From NCBI GenBank assembly GCA_903923135.1, contig CAIXWN010000024.1, positions 49,326 through 113,325 on the forward strand: 64,000 nucleotides of DNA, read 5' to 3'. Origin of the DNA: an uncultured Caulobacteraceae bacterium. Lineage in GTDB: Bacteria; Pseudomonadota; Alphaproteobacteria; Caulobacterales; Caulobacteraceae. Shown piece by piece: positions 14,691 through 29,333 of the stretch. Each line of letters begins with the position of its first letter. Position 1 is the stretch's first letter. A model generated the notes under the pieces. The model was given only the letters and a program-made list of their open reading frames with translations, had not been told where the DNA came from and ran no database searches. The translations under genes were made by a program, and so were the position numbers.

Positions 14691-17252
14691 ATGGTCCGTT
14701 ATAATCCCAAGGAGGTCGAGCCTCGCTGGCGGGCGGCCTGGGACGAGGCCGAGGTCTTCAGGGCCGAGACCGGCTCGCCCAAGCCGAAGTACTATGTCCT
14801 TGAAATGTTTCCCTATCCTTCGGGAAGCTTGCACGTCGGCCATGCCCGGAACTACGCCATGGGCGACGTCGTGGCCCGCTTCAAGCGCGCCCGCGGGTTC
14901 AACGTCCTGCACCCGATGGGTTGGGACGCCTTCGGCCTCCCGGCGGAAAACGCCGCCGCCGAGCGCGGCGTGGATCCGGCCGCCTGGACCTGGGACAACA
15001 TCGCCCGCATGCGCGAGGAGCTGAAACGCCTGGGCCTGTCCATCGACTGGACGCGCGAGCTGGCCACCTGCGATCCGGCCTACTACGGCCACCAGCAGGC
15101 CTGGTTCCTCGAGCTGCTGGAGCGGGGGCTGGTCTATCGCAAGGAAGGCCTGGTCAACTGGGACCCGGTGGACATGACCGTCCTGGCCAACGAGCAGGTG
15201 ATCGACGGGCGAGGCTGGCGGTCGGGGGCGGTGGTTGAGCGCCGCAAGCTCACCCAATGGTTCCTGCGCATAACCGATTATGCCGAGGAGTTGCTGCAGG
15301 GCCTCGCCGGCCTGGATCGCTGGCCGGACAAGGTGCGGCTGATGCAGGAGAACTGGATCGGCAAGTCGCAGGGATTGCGCCTGACCTTCCGTTTCGCCGG
15401 CGACGGCCCGGCCGAAGGTCTTTGCGTCTACACGACCCGACCGGACACCCTTTACGGGGCGAGCTTTCTGGCTGTTGCGCCGGACCACCCCCTGGCCGAC
15501 AGCCTGGCCGCCGCCGATCCGGCCGTGGCCGCTTTCGTCGCCCAGGTGCGCAAGGGCGGCACGTCCGAAGCGGAAATCGAGTCGGCCGAGAAGTTGGGCT
15601 GGGACACCGGTCTGCGCGTCCTTCATCCGTTTGATAAGACTAGAGAAATTCCCGTCTGGATCGCCAACTTCGTGCTGATGGACTATGGCACGGGGGCCAT
15701 TTTCGGCTGTCCGGCTCACGACCAGCGCGACCTCGACTTCGCCCGCAAATATGACCTCCGGGTGACCCCGGTGGTGCTGCCGTCCGGTGAGGATCCGATA
15801 CTGTTTCACGTGAAACACGAGGCCTATGTCGGTCCCGGGCGGATCTACAACTCCGAATTCCTGGACGGACTGGAGATCGAGGAGGCCAAGGCGGCGGCCG
15901 TGGCCCGGGCCGAGGCGGACGGCATCGGCGAAGGCGCGACCGTCTATCGACTGCGGGACTGGGGCGTCGCCCGCCAGCGCGGCTGGGGTTGTCCGATCCC
16001 GGTCATCCATTGCCAGACCTGCGGGGTTGTCCCGACACCGCCCGAGCAGTTGCCGGTGCGCCTGCCTGAAGGCCTGGATTTCAGCAAGCCGGGCAATCCT
16101 CTGGCCCGACACCCCACCTGGAAACATGCCGTTTGCCCCGCCTGCGGCGGGCAGGCCGAACGCGAGACCGACACCCTCGACACCTTCGTCGATTCCTCCT
16201 GGTACTTCGCCCGCTTTCCCGATCCGGCCGCCGCAATGCCCATCGACGCGGCCGCGGCCGACTACTGGCTGCCGGTCGACCAGTACATCGGCGGCGTCGA
16301 GCACGCCGTGCTGCACCTGCTCTACGCCCGCTTCGTCACGCGGGCCCTGGCCGACGAGGGCATGCTCACCGTGCGCGAACCGTTCGCCGGCCTGTTCACC
16401 CAAGGCATGGTGACCCATGAAACCTACCGTCGACAGAGCGGGGAGTGGGTCGAGCCGGGCGTGGTGGACATCCGCAGTGAGGGCGCCACGCGACGCGCCG
16501 TCATCACCGCCACAGGCGAGCCGGTCCAGATCGGCGAGGCGGAGAAGATGTCGAAGTCCAAACGGAACGTCGTGGCTCCGGCGGATATCGCCGACGTCTA
16601 TGGCGTGGACGCCGCCCGGCTGTTCGTGCTCTCCGACTCGCCGCCTGAACGCGATGTGCAGTGGACGAGCACCGGGGTCGAGGGCGCGTGGCGCCTGATC
16701 AACCGCATCTGGGCGGAGTTCGACGAAGGCGTGACGGGGGCCGCCGGAGAGATCGACGACAGCGCCACCCGCGAACTGCGCCGCGCCACCCACAAGGCGA
16801 TAAAAGCGGTGACCGAGTCCATCGAAGGCTTCCGATTCAACAGCGCCGTGGCGAGGCTGTATGAATTCGTCGCCGCGGTTCGCAACGCCCGCGCCGCCGC
16901 TGTCTCCCCTGCGGCCCGGCGGGAGGCTCTTGGCGTTCTGGCCCGGCTGGTGGCCCCCTTCGCGCCCCACCTGGCCGAGGAGTGCTGGCGGACCCTTGGT
17001 GAAAGCGGGTTGATCGCCCTGGCCTCCTGGCCACAATGGGAGCAGGCTCTTGTCGAGGACGATGAACGGTTACTGCCCGTTCAGATCAATGGTAAACGTC
17101 GTGGCGAGGTTCGCGCGCCGGCCGGCGCCAGCAGCGAGGAAGTGGAAAAACTGGTGTTCGGCAACGCGGAAATCGTCCAGCGGCTCGAGGGCCTGACTGT
17201 GCGCAAGGTGATCGTCGTCACCGACCGCATCGTCAATGTGGTGGCAGGCTAG
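14691..17252 (+). CDS. leuS: Leucyl-tRNA synthetase
   Basis: This 853-residue class I synthetase charges tRNA-Leu and edits misacylated products. Motifs: the HIGH-type signature HVGHARNY near residue 50, the editing domain ([20 protein letters not shown], about 245-265), a zinc-ribbon-like CQTCG/CPACG pair, [10 protein letters not shown] near residue 620, and an anticodon-binding C-terminus. The size is normal. One parS palindrome (15802-15817) is embedded in the coding sequence and encodes LFHVKH within the editing-domain region. lptE starts 4 bases after the stop, followed by holA. Confidence 0.97.
15802..15817. promoter_or_regulatory. parS centromere site inside leuS
   Basis: A perfect 16-bp palindrome TGTTTCACGTGAAACA identical to the ParB-binding parS consensus. 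It lies inside leuS, about 3 kb from the 3' end of parB, and is expected to nucleate ParB spreading for chromosome segregation. Confidence 0.93.
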
Positions 17253-18844: not shown

Positions 18845-19732
18845 TCAGCGCGCCAGCGGGGGCCGCGAGAGTCGACGGCAGAGATCGTCAAGCTGTTCCA
18901 GCGTCTCGTAGCGGATCCGCAGCTCGCCGACGCCGTCGCGGTCGCGGATTTCCACCTTCAGTCCCAGAACATCCTCGAGATCGCCTTCCAGGGACCGGGT
19001 GTCGGCGTCCTTCGGCCGGTTCGCGCGCGCCGGGGCGCCGCCTGGCGGCGCGCGCCTGGCCACCCGGGCCAGGGCCTCGGTCTGGCGCACGTTCAGCCCC
19101 CGCCGGATGATCCGTTCGGCGATCCCCACGGCGTCCTCGAGGTCGAGCAGCGCCCGGGCGTGACCCGCCGTCAGACGGCCCGCTTCCAGGTGATCCTGCA
19201 CCTCCGCCGGCAGCCGCATCAGCCGCAGGGTGTTGGCCACATGGCTGCGGCTCTTGCCCACCAGTTTGGCGATGGCCTCGGGCGTGCGCTGAAATCTCGC
19301 CGCCATGGCGTCGTACCCCCGGGCCTCCTCCAGGGCGTTCAGATCGGAGCGCTGGATGTTCTCGATCAGCGCCACCTCCATCACCTCCTGGTCGCCCAGA
19401 TCCCTCACCAGGGCGGGGATGGCCCGGAGTCCGGCCTGCTGCGCGGCTCGCCAGCGCCGTTCTCCGGCGATGATCTGATAGGACCGGTCGCGCCCGGGAA
19501 GCGGCCGGACCAGGATCGGCTGCAGGACGCCGCGTTCGCGGATGGACGCCGCCAGCTCCTCCAGCTCGTCGGCGCCGAAGGCGCGCCTCGGCTGGTCGGG
19601 ATTGGGGACGATCAGCTCTATGGCCACGTCCAGAACCCCGGCAGCCCGCCGCCCTTCCGGCGTCGAAGCCGATTCCACCTCATCCAGCAACGCCGACAGG
19701 CCGCGGCCAAGTCCGCGCCGACCTTCCGCCAT
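18845..19732 (-). CDS. parB: Chromosome-partitioning protein ParB
   Basis: This 295-residue ParB binds parS and spreads as a CTP-dependent clamp. Visible: the N-terminal ParA-interacting start (GRRGLGRGLSALLDEVE), the CTP-binding motif GERRWRAAQ near residue 90, the helix-turn-helix (RTPEAIAKLVGKSRSHVANTLRLMRLP), a linker, and the C-terminal dimerisation domain (GELRIRYETLEQLDDLCRRL). It lies 25 bases downstream of parA on the same strand, and two parS sites are in this window. Confidence 0.97.
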   Translation of the reverse strand: MAEGRRGLGRGLSALLDEVESASTPEGRRAAGVLDVAIELIVPNPDQPRRAFGADELEELAASIRERGVLQPILVRPLPGRDRSYQIIAGERRWRAAQQAGLRAIPALVRDLGDQEVMEVALIENIQRSDLNALEEARGYDAMAARFQRTPEAIAKLVGKSRSHVANTLRLMRLPAEVQDHLEAGRLTAGHARALLDLEDAVGIAERIIRRGLNVRQTEALARVARRAPPGGAPARANRPKDADTRSLEGDLEDVLGLKVEIRDRDGVGELRIRYETLEQLDDLCRRLSRPPLAR

Positions 19733-19757
19733 CAGGTCATCTCCTCAGGTGTCTCAG

Positions 19758-20567
19758 TCAAGCCGGTGTCATCCGGCGACCGCGTTCGCGTCTGATCACT
19801 TCCCGGGCCAGCTTGAGATAGGCCTGACTCCCGGCGCAATGAAGATCATAGATAATCGCCGGCTTGCCGAACGATGGCGCCTCGGAGACCCGCACATTGC
19901 GGGGGATCACCGTCTCATACACCCTGTCGCCCAGGTGGTCGCGCACATCCTTGGCGACCTGCGCCGACAGGCTGTTGCGCCGGTCATACATAGTCAGCAC
20001 CACGCCCTGGACTTCCAGCGCCGGATTCAACGCCCCGCGAACCTGCTCCACAGTCCGCAGCAGCTGGCTGAGACCTTCCAGGGCGAAGAACTCGCACTGC
20101 AGCGGCACCAGGACCGCGTCCGCTGCGGTCATGGCGTTGAGGGTGAGGAGGTTGAGAGACGGCGGACAGTCGATCAGCACATAGTCGTAGGCGCGCCGCT
20201 CGCGCAGTCCGGAAAGCGCGTCACGCAGCCGGAAAGCCCGGCGCGGCGTCTGCCCAAGCTCCAGTTCCACGCCGGAAAGGTCCGCTTCCGCCGGGGCCAG
20301 GTCGAAACCCGGTATGTCCGTGGCCATGATCACCTCGGCGATCGGCGTCTGGTCGATCAGCACGTCATAGATCGTCCTGGCGCGCATGTGCGGCAGCACG
20401 CCCAGGCCCGTCGAGGCGTTGCCTTGCGGGTCGCTGTCGATCAGCAGCACCTTGGCTCCCACCGCTGACAGGGCCGCGCCCAGATTGATGGCCGTGGTGG
20501 TCTTGCCCACGCCCCCCTTCTGGTTCGCGATCGCCAGGATGCGGGGCGGGTCAGCGTCGGCCGGCAC
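19758..20567 (-). CDS. parA: Chromosome-partitioning ATPase ParA
   Basis: This 269-residue Walker-type ATPase moves ParB-parS complexes to the opposite cell pole. The deviant Walker A (NQKGGVGKTTTAINLG) is near residue 15, the A' motif is DSDPQGNAST, and Walker B is YVLIDCPPSLNLLTLNAM. The N-terminus overlaps the rsmG stop by 17 bases. parB follows, so parA-parB form the end of the mnmE-mnmG-rsmG-parA-parB run. Confidence 0.97.
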   Translation of the reverse strand: MPADADPPRILAIANQKGGVGKTTTAINLGAALSAVGAKVLLIDSDPQGNASTGLGVLPHMRARTIYDVLIDQTPIAEVIMATDIPGFDLAPAEADLSGVELELGQTPRRAFRLRDALSGLRERRAYDYVLIDCPPSLNLLTLNAMTAADAVLVPLQCEFFALEGLSQLLRTVEQVRGALNPALEVQGVVLTMYDRRNSLSAQVAKDVRDHLGDRVYETVIPRNVRVSEAPSFGKPAIIYDLHCAGSQAYLKLAREVIRRERGRRMTPA

Positions 20568-23119: not shown

Positions 23120-23135
23120 TGTTTCACGTGAAACA
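23120..23135. promoter_or_regulatory. parS centromere site between mnmG and mnmE
   Basis: A perfect TGTTTCACGTGAAACA palindrome, extended to 18 bp by flanking C and G, located 2 bases beyond the mnmE stop. It matches the copy in leuS exactly over the 16-bp core. It lies about 5 kb from the putative oriC. Confidence 0.95.
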
Positions 23136-26396: not shown

Positions 26397-26831
26397 TCAC
26401 ACCCCCCACTTCGTCGTCACCGAAAGGACGATGATGATGGCGGCAATGAAGGGCAGCTCGTTGGTCATCCTCCAGAAGCGTTCACTGTGCACACGCTCGC
26501 CGGCGGCGAACCGGCGGCGCGACCGGGCCAGAAACATATGCCAGAACACCAGGAAGGCGACACCTAGAAGCTTGACCACCATCCACGGTGTCGCAAGAAT
26601 CGCCGTAGTGTCGAAATAGATCAGCGTACCGCCAAGAATAACGACCACGAAGAGCGCCGGGTTCATGATGATCCCGAGCAACTTCTGCTCCATCGTCTTG
26701 AAGGTCTCGTCCATATCCGACCCCACCACCGCGCGCGTGTGGTAGGTGAACAGTCTCGGCATATAGAGAAGGCCGGCCATCCAGGCGATCACCGCGAGGA
26801 TATGCAGGCCCTTGATCACGTTGAACAGCAT
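26397..26831 (-). CDS. hemJ: Protoporphyrinogen IX oxidase HemJ
   Basis: This 144-residue integral membrane protein (start ATG 26831) has four predicted helices. It carries the HemJ signature KGLHILAVIAWMAGLLYMPRLFTYH with its conserved His and Arg, then LLGVAFLVFWHMFLA and WRMTNELPFIAAIIIVLSV. HemJ oxidises protoporphyrinogen IX in bacteria lacking HemG/HemY. It is next to hemH, so the last two steps of haem synthesis are encoded together. The start shares one base with the hemH stop (TGATG). The track start at 26864 adds a non-conserved extension. Confidence 0.92.
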   Translation of the reverse strand: MLFNVIKGLHILAVIAWMAGLLYMPRLFTYHTRAVVGSDMDETFKTMEQKLLGIIMNPALFVVVILGGTLIYFDTTAILATPWMVVKLLGVAFLVFWHMFLARSRRRFAAGERVHSERFWRMTNELPFIAAIIIVLSVTTKWGV

Positions 26832-27874
26832 CACCCGTTTCCCAATTTGCCGGTTCGCCCGCACCGCGCCAGTCCCACCGGACAGGGCTTGCCGTCCGGA
26901 CAGTATCCCTTCCTTCCTAAAGAAGACGCCACCGCCTTGGCCAGTCCGTCGATGAACGTCGCCTCGGTTCCGACGACCGGTGCGCGCAGGTAGGGCGTCG
27001 CGGCGACCTCTGCGGCCAGTTCGGCATAGTCGCGATCCAGTTCGACCAGGGTCTCGATGTGCTCAGACACGAAAGCGATGGGATCGATCAACACCCCGAT
27101 CCCGTCGCGCCCGGCCGCTTCGATGGCCTCGGGTGTCGATGGCCCGATCCATTTCAGAGGCCCGACCCTCGACTGATAGCAGATCCGCCAGTCCCAGCCC
27201 TCGCCAAGGCGGGCGGCCACGGCGGCGCAGGTGGCCTCGATCTGCCATTGATAGGGATCGCCGCTGTTGGCGATCTGCTCCGGGAGGCCGTGGGCGGAAA
27301 ACAGCAGCCGCACTTTCGGTCGGCCAGCGGCCTCCCAGGTGCGCAGGATCTGGCTGACATGGGCCTCCACCAGTCCGTCGTTGTCATACCAGCAGCAGAG
27401 GCCATGGATATTGCCAGGACCCTTGTAGGCCCTCTTCCACGCGTCGAGCGACGAGCCGGTGGTGGTGGTCGAGAACTGCGGGTAGAGTGGCGTCAGGACC
27501 ACATGGTCTGGAGCCCAGGCGGCGACCTCCGCCGCGGCCTCCTCGGTCAGGGGCCGCCAGTAGCGCATGGCGATGAAGATACGGATGTTCAGATGAGGCA
27601 GAGCCAGGCTCAGGGCTGTCTGGAGACTCGCCGACTGCGCCTCGGTTTCCGGCACGATGGGTGAGCCGCCGCCCATCTGGGCGGAGTTGGCGATCGCCGA
27701 CTTCTCCCTCAGCCGGGCGATGAGCGCGGCCAGCGGCCGTCGGACGAGCCAGGGCGCGCCGATGATCGCCGGGTCCGAGAACAGGTTCTCCAGAAACGGA
27801 CGCACCGCCTGTGGTCCGTCCGGTCCGCCGAGATTGAACAGGACGACCGCGAGGCGGGGCCTTGCTTCACTCAT
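26831..27874 (-). CDS. hemH: Ferrochelatase
   Basis: This 347-residue enzyme inserts Fe2+ into protoporphyrin IX. Family landmarks: LAVVLFNLGGPDGPQAVRPFLENLF at the start, the catalytic-His block LLFSAHGLPEQIANSGDPY, and the Glu-bearing IDPIAFVSEHIETLVELD. A short Cys-containing C-terminal tail (CPDGKPCPVGLARC) resembles the [2Fe-2S]-type tails of some ferrochelatases; only the spacing can be seen. Its 5' end borders the putative replication origin, so it is transcribed away from oriC. Confidence 0.95.
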   Translation of the reverse strand: MSEARPRLAVVLFNLGGPDGPQAVRPFLENLFSDPAIIGAPWLVRRPLAALIARLREKSAIANSAQMGGGSPIVPETEAQSASLQTALSLALPHLNIRIFIAMRYWRPLTEEAAAEVAAWAPDHVVLTPLYPQFSTTTTGSSLDAWKRAYKGPGNIHGLCCWYDNDGLVEAHVSQILRTWEAAGRPKVRLLFSAHGLPEQIANSGDPYQWQIEATCAAVAARLGEGWDWRICYQSRVGPLKWIGPSTPEAIEAAGRDGIGVLIDPIAFVSEHIETLVELDRDYAELAAEVAATPYLRAPVVGTEATFIDGLAKAVASSLGRKGYCPDGKPCPVGLARCGRTGKLGNG

Positions 27875-28030
27875 CGGTCAGGCGCTCGGTCCGACACAGT
27901 CGCATGCTTGATCACTGGCCCCCGCAAATTCGCCATCGACGACCCGTCCGGCCTATCGCCTGAAGGATCGCCCCTGAGGCGCCTTAGACAGCGTTCGAGC
28001 CCGCCTCTCAAGACCCCTCTTATGAGACGC

Positions 28031-28052
28031 CTTTCTTCAGTCTTTCTTAAGA
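28031..28052. repeat. Tandem 11-mer in the AT-rich part of oriC
   Basis: CTTTCTTCAGT is followed directly by CTTTCTTAAGA, matching at 9 of 11 positions. It lies in a stretch markedly richer in A/T than its surroundings. Such tandem short repeats are typical of DNA-unwinding elements. The second copy also contains a TTAA half-site for CtrA. Confidence 0.5.
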
Positions 28053-28293
28053 GATTTAGGTTTTTGGTAGTTTGAATAGGACCCCTGATGATGGGGATGG
28101 TCGCTGACGCAGCCGGCTGTCCCCTCGAGATCCCCCGACACGTCTGTTCGAAAGCGCACCGGAACTCATCTCGCCGAAGGCCGTGCATAAGATACAAAGC
28201 TCTGATTTTGCAAAGAAATGTGCGCGACGATTTGGGGACAGACCTGTGAACGCCCTGGGGGGCGCCCCGCCATGCGGCCATGGCTTGCTGTGG

Positions 28294-28351
28294 CTGTCCA
28301 CAGCCGGAAGCTTTGGGGAAAACCCCTGCCGTTGCGGCCCGCTTATCCCCC
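28294..28351. promoter_or_regulatory. Cluster of DnaA-box-like 9-mers in oriC
   Basis: Matches to TTATCCACA: CTGTCCACA at 28294-28302 (7/9, inside GCTGTGGCTGTCCACAGC), TTTTCCCCA on the minus strand at 28314-28322 (7/9), and TTATCCCCC at 28343-28351 (7/9). Two weaker ones lie outside: 28182-28190 minus (TTATGCACG, 7/9) and 28437-28445 (CACTCCACA, 6/9, adjacent to the CtrA box). None is a perfect consensus box, as is also usual for the weak boxes of Caulobacter. Confidence 0.55.
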
Positions 28352-28417
28352 GCCGGACAGCGCGGCGTCATTGCGAGGAATTCTGGCCCCCGTGCTTCCA
28401 CGCTAGGCGGGGATTGA

Positions 28418-28432
28418 TTAAGCAACCGTTAA
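28418..28432. promoter_or_regulatory. CtrA-binding box in oriC
   Basis: A perfect TTAA-N7-TTAA (TTAA GCAACCG TTAA). Phosphorylated CtrA binding such boxes represses replication initiation in Caulobacter. A TCCACA-containing 9-mer follows 4 bases later, so DnaA and CtrA could compete here. It also sits 53 bases upstream of the DUF299 gene start, where it could affect transcription. Confidence 0.82.
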
Positions 28433-28484
28433 CCGACACTCCACAGGCTGCGTCACGCACTGCGATCGAGGGTAAGCGCCAGAC

Positions 28485-29333
28485 ATGACCTCGCCCCAGC
28501 GGCTCGCCACCTATTTTCACGTCCATCTGGTGTCGGATTCTACCGGCGAGACACTCAACGCTATGGCTCGCGCCGCCTGCGCCCGCTTCAACAATGTGCT
28601 CGAGATCGAACATATCTACGCCCTTGTGCGCTCGCCGGCCCAGCTCGAGCGGGCCCTGGTGGAGATCGCCAACGCGCCGGGCGTCGTGCTGCACACCATC
28701 GTCGATGAGACCCTGCGCAGCGCCTTGGAGGAAGGCTGCCAGAAGCTGGAAATGCCGTGTTTCGGGGCGCTCGATCCGCTGGTCTCCGCTCTGTCCTGGT
28801 ATCTGGGCGCGCCCCTGTCGACCCAGGTGGGCGCGCAGTACGCTCTCGACAGCGACTATTTCAACCGCATGGACGCTCTCTCCTACGCGCTGGGGCATGA
28901 CGACGGTCAGGGTGGCCAGGACCTCAAGCTCGCCGACGTGGTTCTGGTGGGCGTTTCGCGTACGTCAAAGACCCCGACCTGCATCTATCTGGCGCACAGG
29001 GGGGTCAAAGCCGCCAACATCCCCCTTGTGCCCTCCTCGGGCGTCCCGGCCCGCCTCCTGGATCTGAAAGGCGTGCCGGTGGTCGGTCTCACCCTTTCCC
29101 CGGATCGCCTGGTGCAGATCCGTCGCAACCGCCTGCGCAGCCTCAGCGAGAGCCGGGAAAGCGCCTATGTCGACAACGAGGCCGTCCGCGCCGAGGTTGT
29201 CGCCGCCCGGCGGCTGTTCGAGCGCCAGGGCTGGCCGGTGATCGACGTCACACGCCGGTCGGTGGAGGAAACCGCCGCGGCGGTGATCAACATCCTCTCG
29301 CGCGGCGCCGCACAGGTCGAGGTTCTGGGTTGA
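28485..29333 (+). CDS. PEP synthase / pyruvate phosphate dikinase regulatory protein (DUF299)
   Basis: This 282-residue bifunctional serine/threonine kinase-phosphorylase family protein controls pyruvate,phosphate dikinase or PEP synthetase by ADP-dependent phosphorylation. Motifs: N-terminal FHVHLVSDSTGETLNAMARAA, and the P-loop-like GVSRTSKTPTCIYLA followed by NIPLVPSSGVPARL. It starts the operon running away from oriC. Its stop overlaps the maf start by 3 bases. It is the first gene after the origin, as in Caulobacter. Confidence 0.93.
   Translation: MTSPQRLATYFHVHLVSDSTGETLNAMARAACARFNNVLEIEHIYALVRSPAQLERALVEIANAPGVVLHTIVDETLRSALEEGCQKLEMPCFGALDPLVSALSWYLGAPLSTQVGAQYALDSDYFNRMDALSYALGHDDGQGGQDLKLADVVLVGVSRTSKTPTCIYLAHRGVKAANIPLVPSSGVPARLLDLKGVPVVGLTLSPDRLVQIRRNRLRSLSESRESAYVDNEAVRAEVVAARRLFERQGWPVIDVTRRSVEETAAAVINILSRGAAQVEVLG

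Follow-up and report, generated by a model that had tools for sequence, protein, structure and literature searches.

The hemH–ppsR intergenic region is a very probable chromosomal replication origin in an uncultured Caulobacteraceae bacterium

Results

Genes bounding the candidate origin

The window analysed here, a 64-kb stretch of a 113-kb contig from an uncultured Caulobacteraceae bacterium (draft assembly, 4.64 Mb in 279 contigs), contains a 610-bp intergenic region between hemH and ppsR that is very probably the site where chromosome replication starts, an ordinary origin of the Caulobacter family. The region and the genes that bound it are:

27875–28484, no strand: candidate chromosomal origin (oriC), the 610-bp hemH–ppsR intergenic region; gene-free, with synteny and a conserved module in relatives
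26831–27874, minus strand: hemH, ferrochelatase, left bound of the gap (TIGR00109, 262 bits)
28485–29333, plus strand: ppsR (DUF299, COG1806), the origin-flanking gene of Caulobacter (NF003742, 318 bits)

A sequence-only reading of this DNA had described a 610-base gene-free stretch between divergent hemH and DUF299 genes. The profile matches and a check of open reading frames (ORFs) agree with it, and the overlapping ORFs inside the gap match no family in an NCBIfam profile search. GC content is 60% inside the gap versus ~69% around it. Near relatives of ppsR come from Caulobacteraceae metagenome-assembled genomes (80–92% identity), followed by Phenylobacterium and Caulobacter. In C. crescentus, COG1806 adjoins the experimentally mapped origin, and hemE lies on the opposite side (PMC1914354). 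The earlier equation of the gap with the corresponding Caulobacter junction holds on the ppsR side and fails on the hemH side, where hemE, which would stand between hemH and the origin, has been lost.

A CtrA box with an adjacent TCCACA 9-mer

Close to ppsR, the gap carries a compact module, and a second, degenerate CtrA box lies further left:

28418–28432, no strand: perfect CtrA box TTAAGCAACCGTTAA; the same 15-mer occurs in G101, G193 and other genomes of the Caulobacter group
28437–28445, plus strand: 9-mer CACTCCACA, placed where Caulobacter has its G-box TGATCCACA; relatives show the same 4-bp distance to the CtrA box
28396–28401, plus strand: conserved TTCCAC, a possible weak DnaA site ~16 bp to the left of the CtrA box; common to loci L013–L018 in the alignment
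28036–28050, no strand: degenerate CtrA box TTCAGTCTTTCTTAA, matching 7 of 8 defined bases; at loci L019 and L020 the corresponding left-hand position holds a perfect box

The perfect TTAA-N7-TTAA described for the gap is present at 28418–28432. The window has no other, the draft genome has five in all, and shuffled gap sequences yield a perfect box in 0.07% of cases. Among the genome's other four, one falls within a possible ORF, and the remaining three are 30–190 bp away from one. With one perfect box and one 7/8 match, the gap can be set beside the 73 hemE-flanked relatives, which average 1.2 perfect boxes.

The 9-mer was proposed to lie 4 bases from the CtrA box, and this distance stands; its match to the DnaA-box sequence TTATCCACA is only 6/9, and the proposal made for it depends on the TCCACA core. 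The Caulobacter group reads TTAAGCAACCGTTAAC-GGA-TGATCCACA, in which both the CtrA 15-mer and the 4-bp spacing equal those of the window. G-boxes, which lie near or overlap CtrA sites, are described as carrying a T-to-G change (PMC4468827), and TGATCCACA has this change. Comparing TGATCCACA with the window's 9-mer, we found that position and TCCACA core are conserved and that the first three bases differ. The 9-mer occupies the position of a Caulobacter G-box, which makes competition between CtrA and DnaA at the CtrA box and the adjacent 9-mer plausible, although the 9-mer has drifted here.

The same box could be read differently, as driving a small RNA rather than blocking DnaA. The CcnA gene of C. 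crescentus lies inside its origin, Cori, with CtrA boxes in the CcnA promoter and at the gene's end (PMC8959179), and one perfect plus one degenerate box would be compatible with such an arrangement. No Rfam family reaches threshold in the window, a search that included no CcnA-specific model. We regard this function of the box as rather unlikely; it would not conflict with the gap being the origin.

Conservation of position and module

Our comparisons of module, hemE and boxes draw on 199 family genomes, 81 origin loci and 16 genomes of the window's genus. The arrangement hemE-gap-ppsR occurs in 73 of the 81 loci, with a gap of ~470–700 bp. The composite TTAAN7TTAAC-N1-9-TCCACA is found in 52 of the 199 genomes (reversed-pattern control, 0) and lies near ppsR in 26 of 30 loci inspected. 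In the alignment of close relatives, the gap is poorly conserved beyond the CtrA/TCCACA module and a block at its left edge. At locus L020, hemH was not detected beside the gap, and rho lies ~1.3 kb from ppsR.

CtrA and DnaA regulate transcription too (PMC4468827), and the box lies 53–67 bp upstream of the ppsR start, a normal promoter distance. The CtrA box and TCCACA might thus be ordinary ppsR promoter elements in a gap made of two divergent promoters, with the origin elsewhere. In L017, however, a repeat-like insertion ~10–120 bp upstream of ppsR has left the module intact but at -194 instead of about -67, and at L104 and L109 its orientation is opposite to that of ppsR, which argues that it is more than a ppsR promoter. 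The family-wide gap size, the adjacency to the mapped Caulobacter origin and the nearby parS also speak against this explanation, which we consider very improbable.

AT-rich stretches, DnaA-like boxes and an IHF site

Elsewhere in the gap we found candidate elements for DNA opening and DnaA assembly, among them a site for integration host factor (IHF):

28005–28101, no strand: candidate DNA-unwinding element and the window's most AT-rich stretch; AT fraction over 40 bp up to 0.73, the 64-kb maximum
28168–28245, no strand: second AT-rich stretch; AT fraction over 40 bp up to 0.65
28195–28207, minus strand: IHF consensus WATCARNNNNTTR, 13/13; the window's only perfect match, P ~0.02 in shuffles
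28182–28190, minus strand: DnaA-like 9-mer TTATGCACG, 7/9
28294–28302, plus strand: DnaA-like 9-mer CTGTCCACA, 7/9
28314–28322, minus strand: DnaA-like 9-mer TTTTCCCCA, 7/9
28343–28351, plus strand: DnaA-like 9-mer TTATCCCCC, 7/9

The AT-richer part that had been described is borne out, as the left portion of the gap holds the window's most AT-rich 40-mer; the perfect IHF site had gone unmentioned. Several 7/9 DnaA-like boxes had also been claimed. Four are indeed there, against ~0.8–1.0 expected by chance, which is a mild excess (P ~0.01) of weak sites, none of them better than 7/9. The gap contains no GANTC (CcrM) site, where ~2.1 would be expected at the window's rate, so this absence is not significant.

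Partition sites, strand polarity and the location of the origin

The chromosome partition genes and two perfect parS sites lie to the left of the gap:

23120–23135 (contig 72445–72460), no strand: perfect parS TGTTTCACGTGAAACA in the mnmG–mnmE gap, 4.7 kb from the origin gap
15802–15817 (contig 65127–65142), no strand: perfect parS TGTTTCACGTGAAACA, 12 kb from the gap; within the long ORF 14691–17252, not intergenic
18845–20567, minus strand: parB (18845–19732) and a parA-like ATPase gene (19758–20567)

The site at 23120–23135 thus falls within about 10 kb of the candidate origin; the parS of Cori lies within 8 kb (PMC4468827).

Several observations weigh against placing the origin in the gap. 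Close relatives (L013, L015, L016 and L019) have no perfect CtrA box at the right-hand position. The gap has no DnaA box at 8/9 or 9/9, and the strict consensus finds no match in it. A GC-skew switch had been proposed at ~28 kb and is absent: the local minimum lies at contig position 100,118 (window ~51 kb), 22 kb further right than the module. Local GC skew, TA skew and polarity of motifs resembling FtsK-orienting polar sequences (KOPS) show no switch at the gap on the 113-kb contig. A point in favour of the gap comes from the relative G101, where the KOPS-like motif GGGNAGGG (sampled) changes strand near 1.9–2.0 Mb, about halfway round from the module at 3.80 Mb; from 3.2 to 3.6 Mb, its polarity departs from this pattern.

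The missing skew switch, together with the location of dnaA on another contig (the genome encodes both DnaA and CtrA), could be taken to mean that the origin lies elsewhere, for instance near dnaA or at the skew minimum, and that the gap is a relic. On long contigs of three relatives, however, the offset of the skew minimum within 36 kb from this module is -6, +4 and +28 kb, so the displacement seen here does not refute an origin in the gap; at the scale of a 113-kb contig, GC skew has too little resolution to support or refute it. The par genes and the two parS sites near the gap also speak against a relic; the genome's only two perfect TTATCCACA sites sit on contigs other than that of the gap. 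An origin outside the gap is scarcely credible to us. The identification of the gap as oriC is strongly supported by its conserved position, the module of CtrA box and TCCACA, parS, the AT-rich element and the IHF site.

Replacement of the origin-linked hemE

In the window and at loci L013–L016 and L019, hemH abuts the gap, whereas hemE stands between them in most of the family. The second flank of the origin is therefore not hemE here, and with one defining flank missing the gap is a variant of the Caulobacter-type origin rather than a copy of Cori. The single hemE that we found in the genome is on contig C168, among crtI, bchD, bchI, bchP and bchG (names assigned by eye, not by profile). Two photosynthetic reaction-centre genes share this contig, and the photosynthesis gene cluster with the hemE covers C168:60000–72000 and C168:47150–48810. 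The cluster hemE is ~52% identical to origin-linked hemE, compared with 75–88% inside its own group, and the cluster type forms a separate clade with full support. Within the genus, genomes with full-length reaction-centre genes never show hemE beside ppsR, and genomes with origin-linked hemE have no full-length reaction-centre genes (G095 has a partial match). These sequence relationships indicate that the genome's hemE is a xenolog, a foreign copy in a photosynthesis gene cluster that replaces the origin-linked gene. The pattern fits a gain of the photosynthesis-linked hemE followed by loss of the origin copy, whose function is presumably covered by the foreign one.

Two relatives stand apart in their hemE content. 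In G070 (L013, L126), a 96% complete genome in which hemH abuts the origin, a PF01208 search found no hemE. G034 (L140) has a third, very divergent hemE-like gene, which sits on a long branch and shares 46% identity with the cluster-type copy.

The left edge of the gap retains a further trace of the family arrangement:

27984–28012, minus strand: 29-bp block TTAGAC-N17-CTCAAG (TTA(A/G)A...CTCAAG in relatives); present at 75 of the 81 loci, against 0.4% in shuffles

In relatives, this block lies ~9–13 bp from the hemE start codon. Since the gap still carries the block that precedes hemE in relatives, the origin survived the loss of hemE. Read leftward (CTTGAG-N17-GTCTAA), the block resembles a promoter, a role we infer from this likeness, and hemH may have inherited the hemE promoter at 27984–28012.

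CtrA in a lineage without flagella

The window's genome probably belongs to Acaudatibacter/Palsa-881, because its relatives palsa_881 (L018) and SZAS AMP-5 (L026) carry names matching Palsa-881. This clade has been renamed Acaudatibacter, most of whose members lost flagella, holdfast and 26 developmental regulators (PMC12700997). The window's genome lacks the flagellar export gene flhA, a lack shared by 14 of the 16 genus members, and the ppsR clade of the window includes neither of the two flhA-bearing congeners, G081 and G090. CtrA is present in all 16 genomes, and its DNA-binding region is nearly unchanged in the nine full sequences aligned. Neither this context nor the loss of hemE had figured in the sequence-only reading.

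We counted perfect CtrA boxes genome-wide as a crude proxy for the CtrA regulon. There are 12 in the flagellated G081 and 13 in the flagellated G090 (reversed control, 3 and 0), and 1–10 in the 14 other congeners (reversed control, 2–30). Inferring a loss of boxes from the reversed-motif control alone was rejected, because AATT and TTAA differ in their dinucleotides; the comparison with G081 and G090 within the genus is the better control. A perfect box lies in the gap upstream of ppsR in 7 of the 12 flagella-less congeners with a readable ppsR region. Across those 12 genomes, 7 of 40 perfect boxes fall in this gap, which makes up ~0.016% of the DNA (Poisson ~2e-20); they occupy the right-hand module in G000, G076, G120 and G063 and other positions in G046, G055 and G100. 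The box counts thus indicate that this flagella-less lineage has retained the oriC CtrA box even though its genomes no longer show an overall excess of CtrA boxes.

It is possible, and we suggest it only tentatively, that the role of CtrA has narrowed from global regulation of development towards origin control in a lineage without flagella and probably without dimorphism, the oriC box being among the last kept. If so, CtrA would act at oriC primarily in growth or stress gating rather than in swarmer/stalked asymmetry.

The C-terminus of CtrA varies within the genus. It is Ala-Ala in both flagellated congeners and in G063, G095, G105, G115 and G120, and LA, VA, PA, MA, TA or NA in the window's genome, G021, G034, G046, G055, G070, G076 and G110. 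In Caulobacter, the terminal Ala-Ala matters for proteolysis of CtrA by ClpXP. Loss of cpdR, rcdA and popA has been reported for non-flagellated lineages (PMC12700997).

Discussion

We are confident that the hemH–ppsR gap is a Caulobacteraceae chromosomal origin. Its position, its motifs, their conservation and their spacing are features of the DNA itself; from these we infer unwinding, occupancy by DnaA and CtrA, and repression at the gap. In the mechanism we propose, DnaA would assemble on the weak boxes in the right half of the gap, helped by IHF bending, and this assembly would open the AT-rich left half. Phosphorylated CtrA bound at 28418–28432 would exclude DnaA from the 9-mer at 28437–28445 and so restrain initiation, and ParB on the two nearby parS sites would segregate the origin copies.

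As an origin the gap is expected, and its usefulness is that of a natural experiment. CtrA control of Cori has been argued to have evolved mainly for nutrient and stress responses, and removing the CtrA sites of Cori is reported to perturb the laboratory cell cycle only mildly (PMC4468827). An oriC CtrA box kept in a majority of these flagella-less genomes, with no excess of boxes elsewhere, makes this argument testable. Transcription of hemE has been linked to replication in Caulobacter (PMC8959179), and the loss of hemE separates origin function from the hemE gene.

Among known systems, C. crescentus Cori resembles the gap in its COG1806/ppsR flank, its size class (404 bp there, 610 here), its AT-rich element and IHF site, its CtrA box with a TCCACA 9-mer 4 bp away, and its parS within 8 kb. 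It differs in that hemE has been lost here and hemH is now the flank, the gap has no canonical G-box, one perfect CtrA box (plus a degenerate one) stands against five in C. crescentus, and the host lineage has no flagella. The hemE/COG1806 origins of Rickettsia share the right flank and the logic of position (PMC1914354), whereas their genomes are AT-rich and retain hemE. With the locus of the non-coding RNA CcnA in Cori, the gap shares a CtrA box within the origin (PMC8959179).
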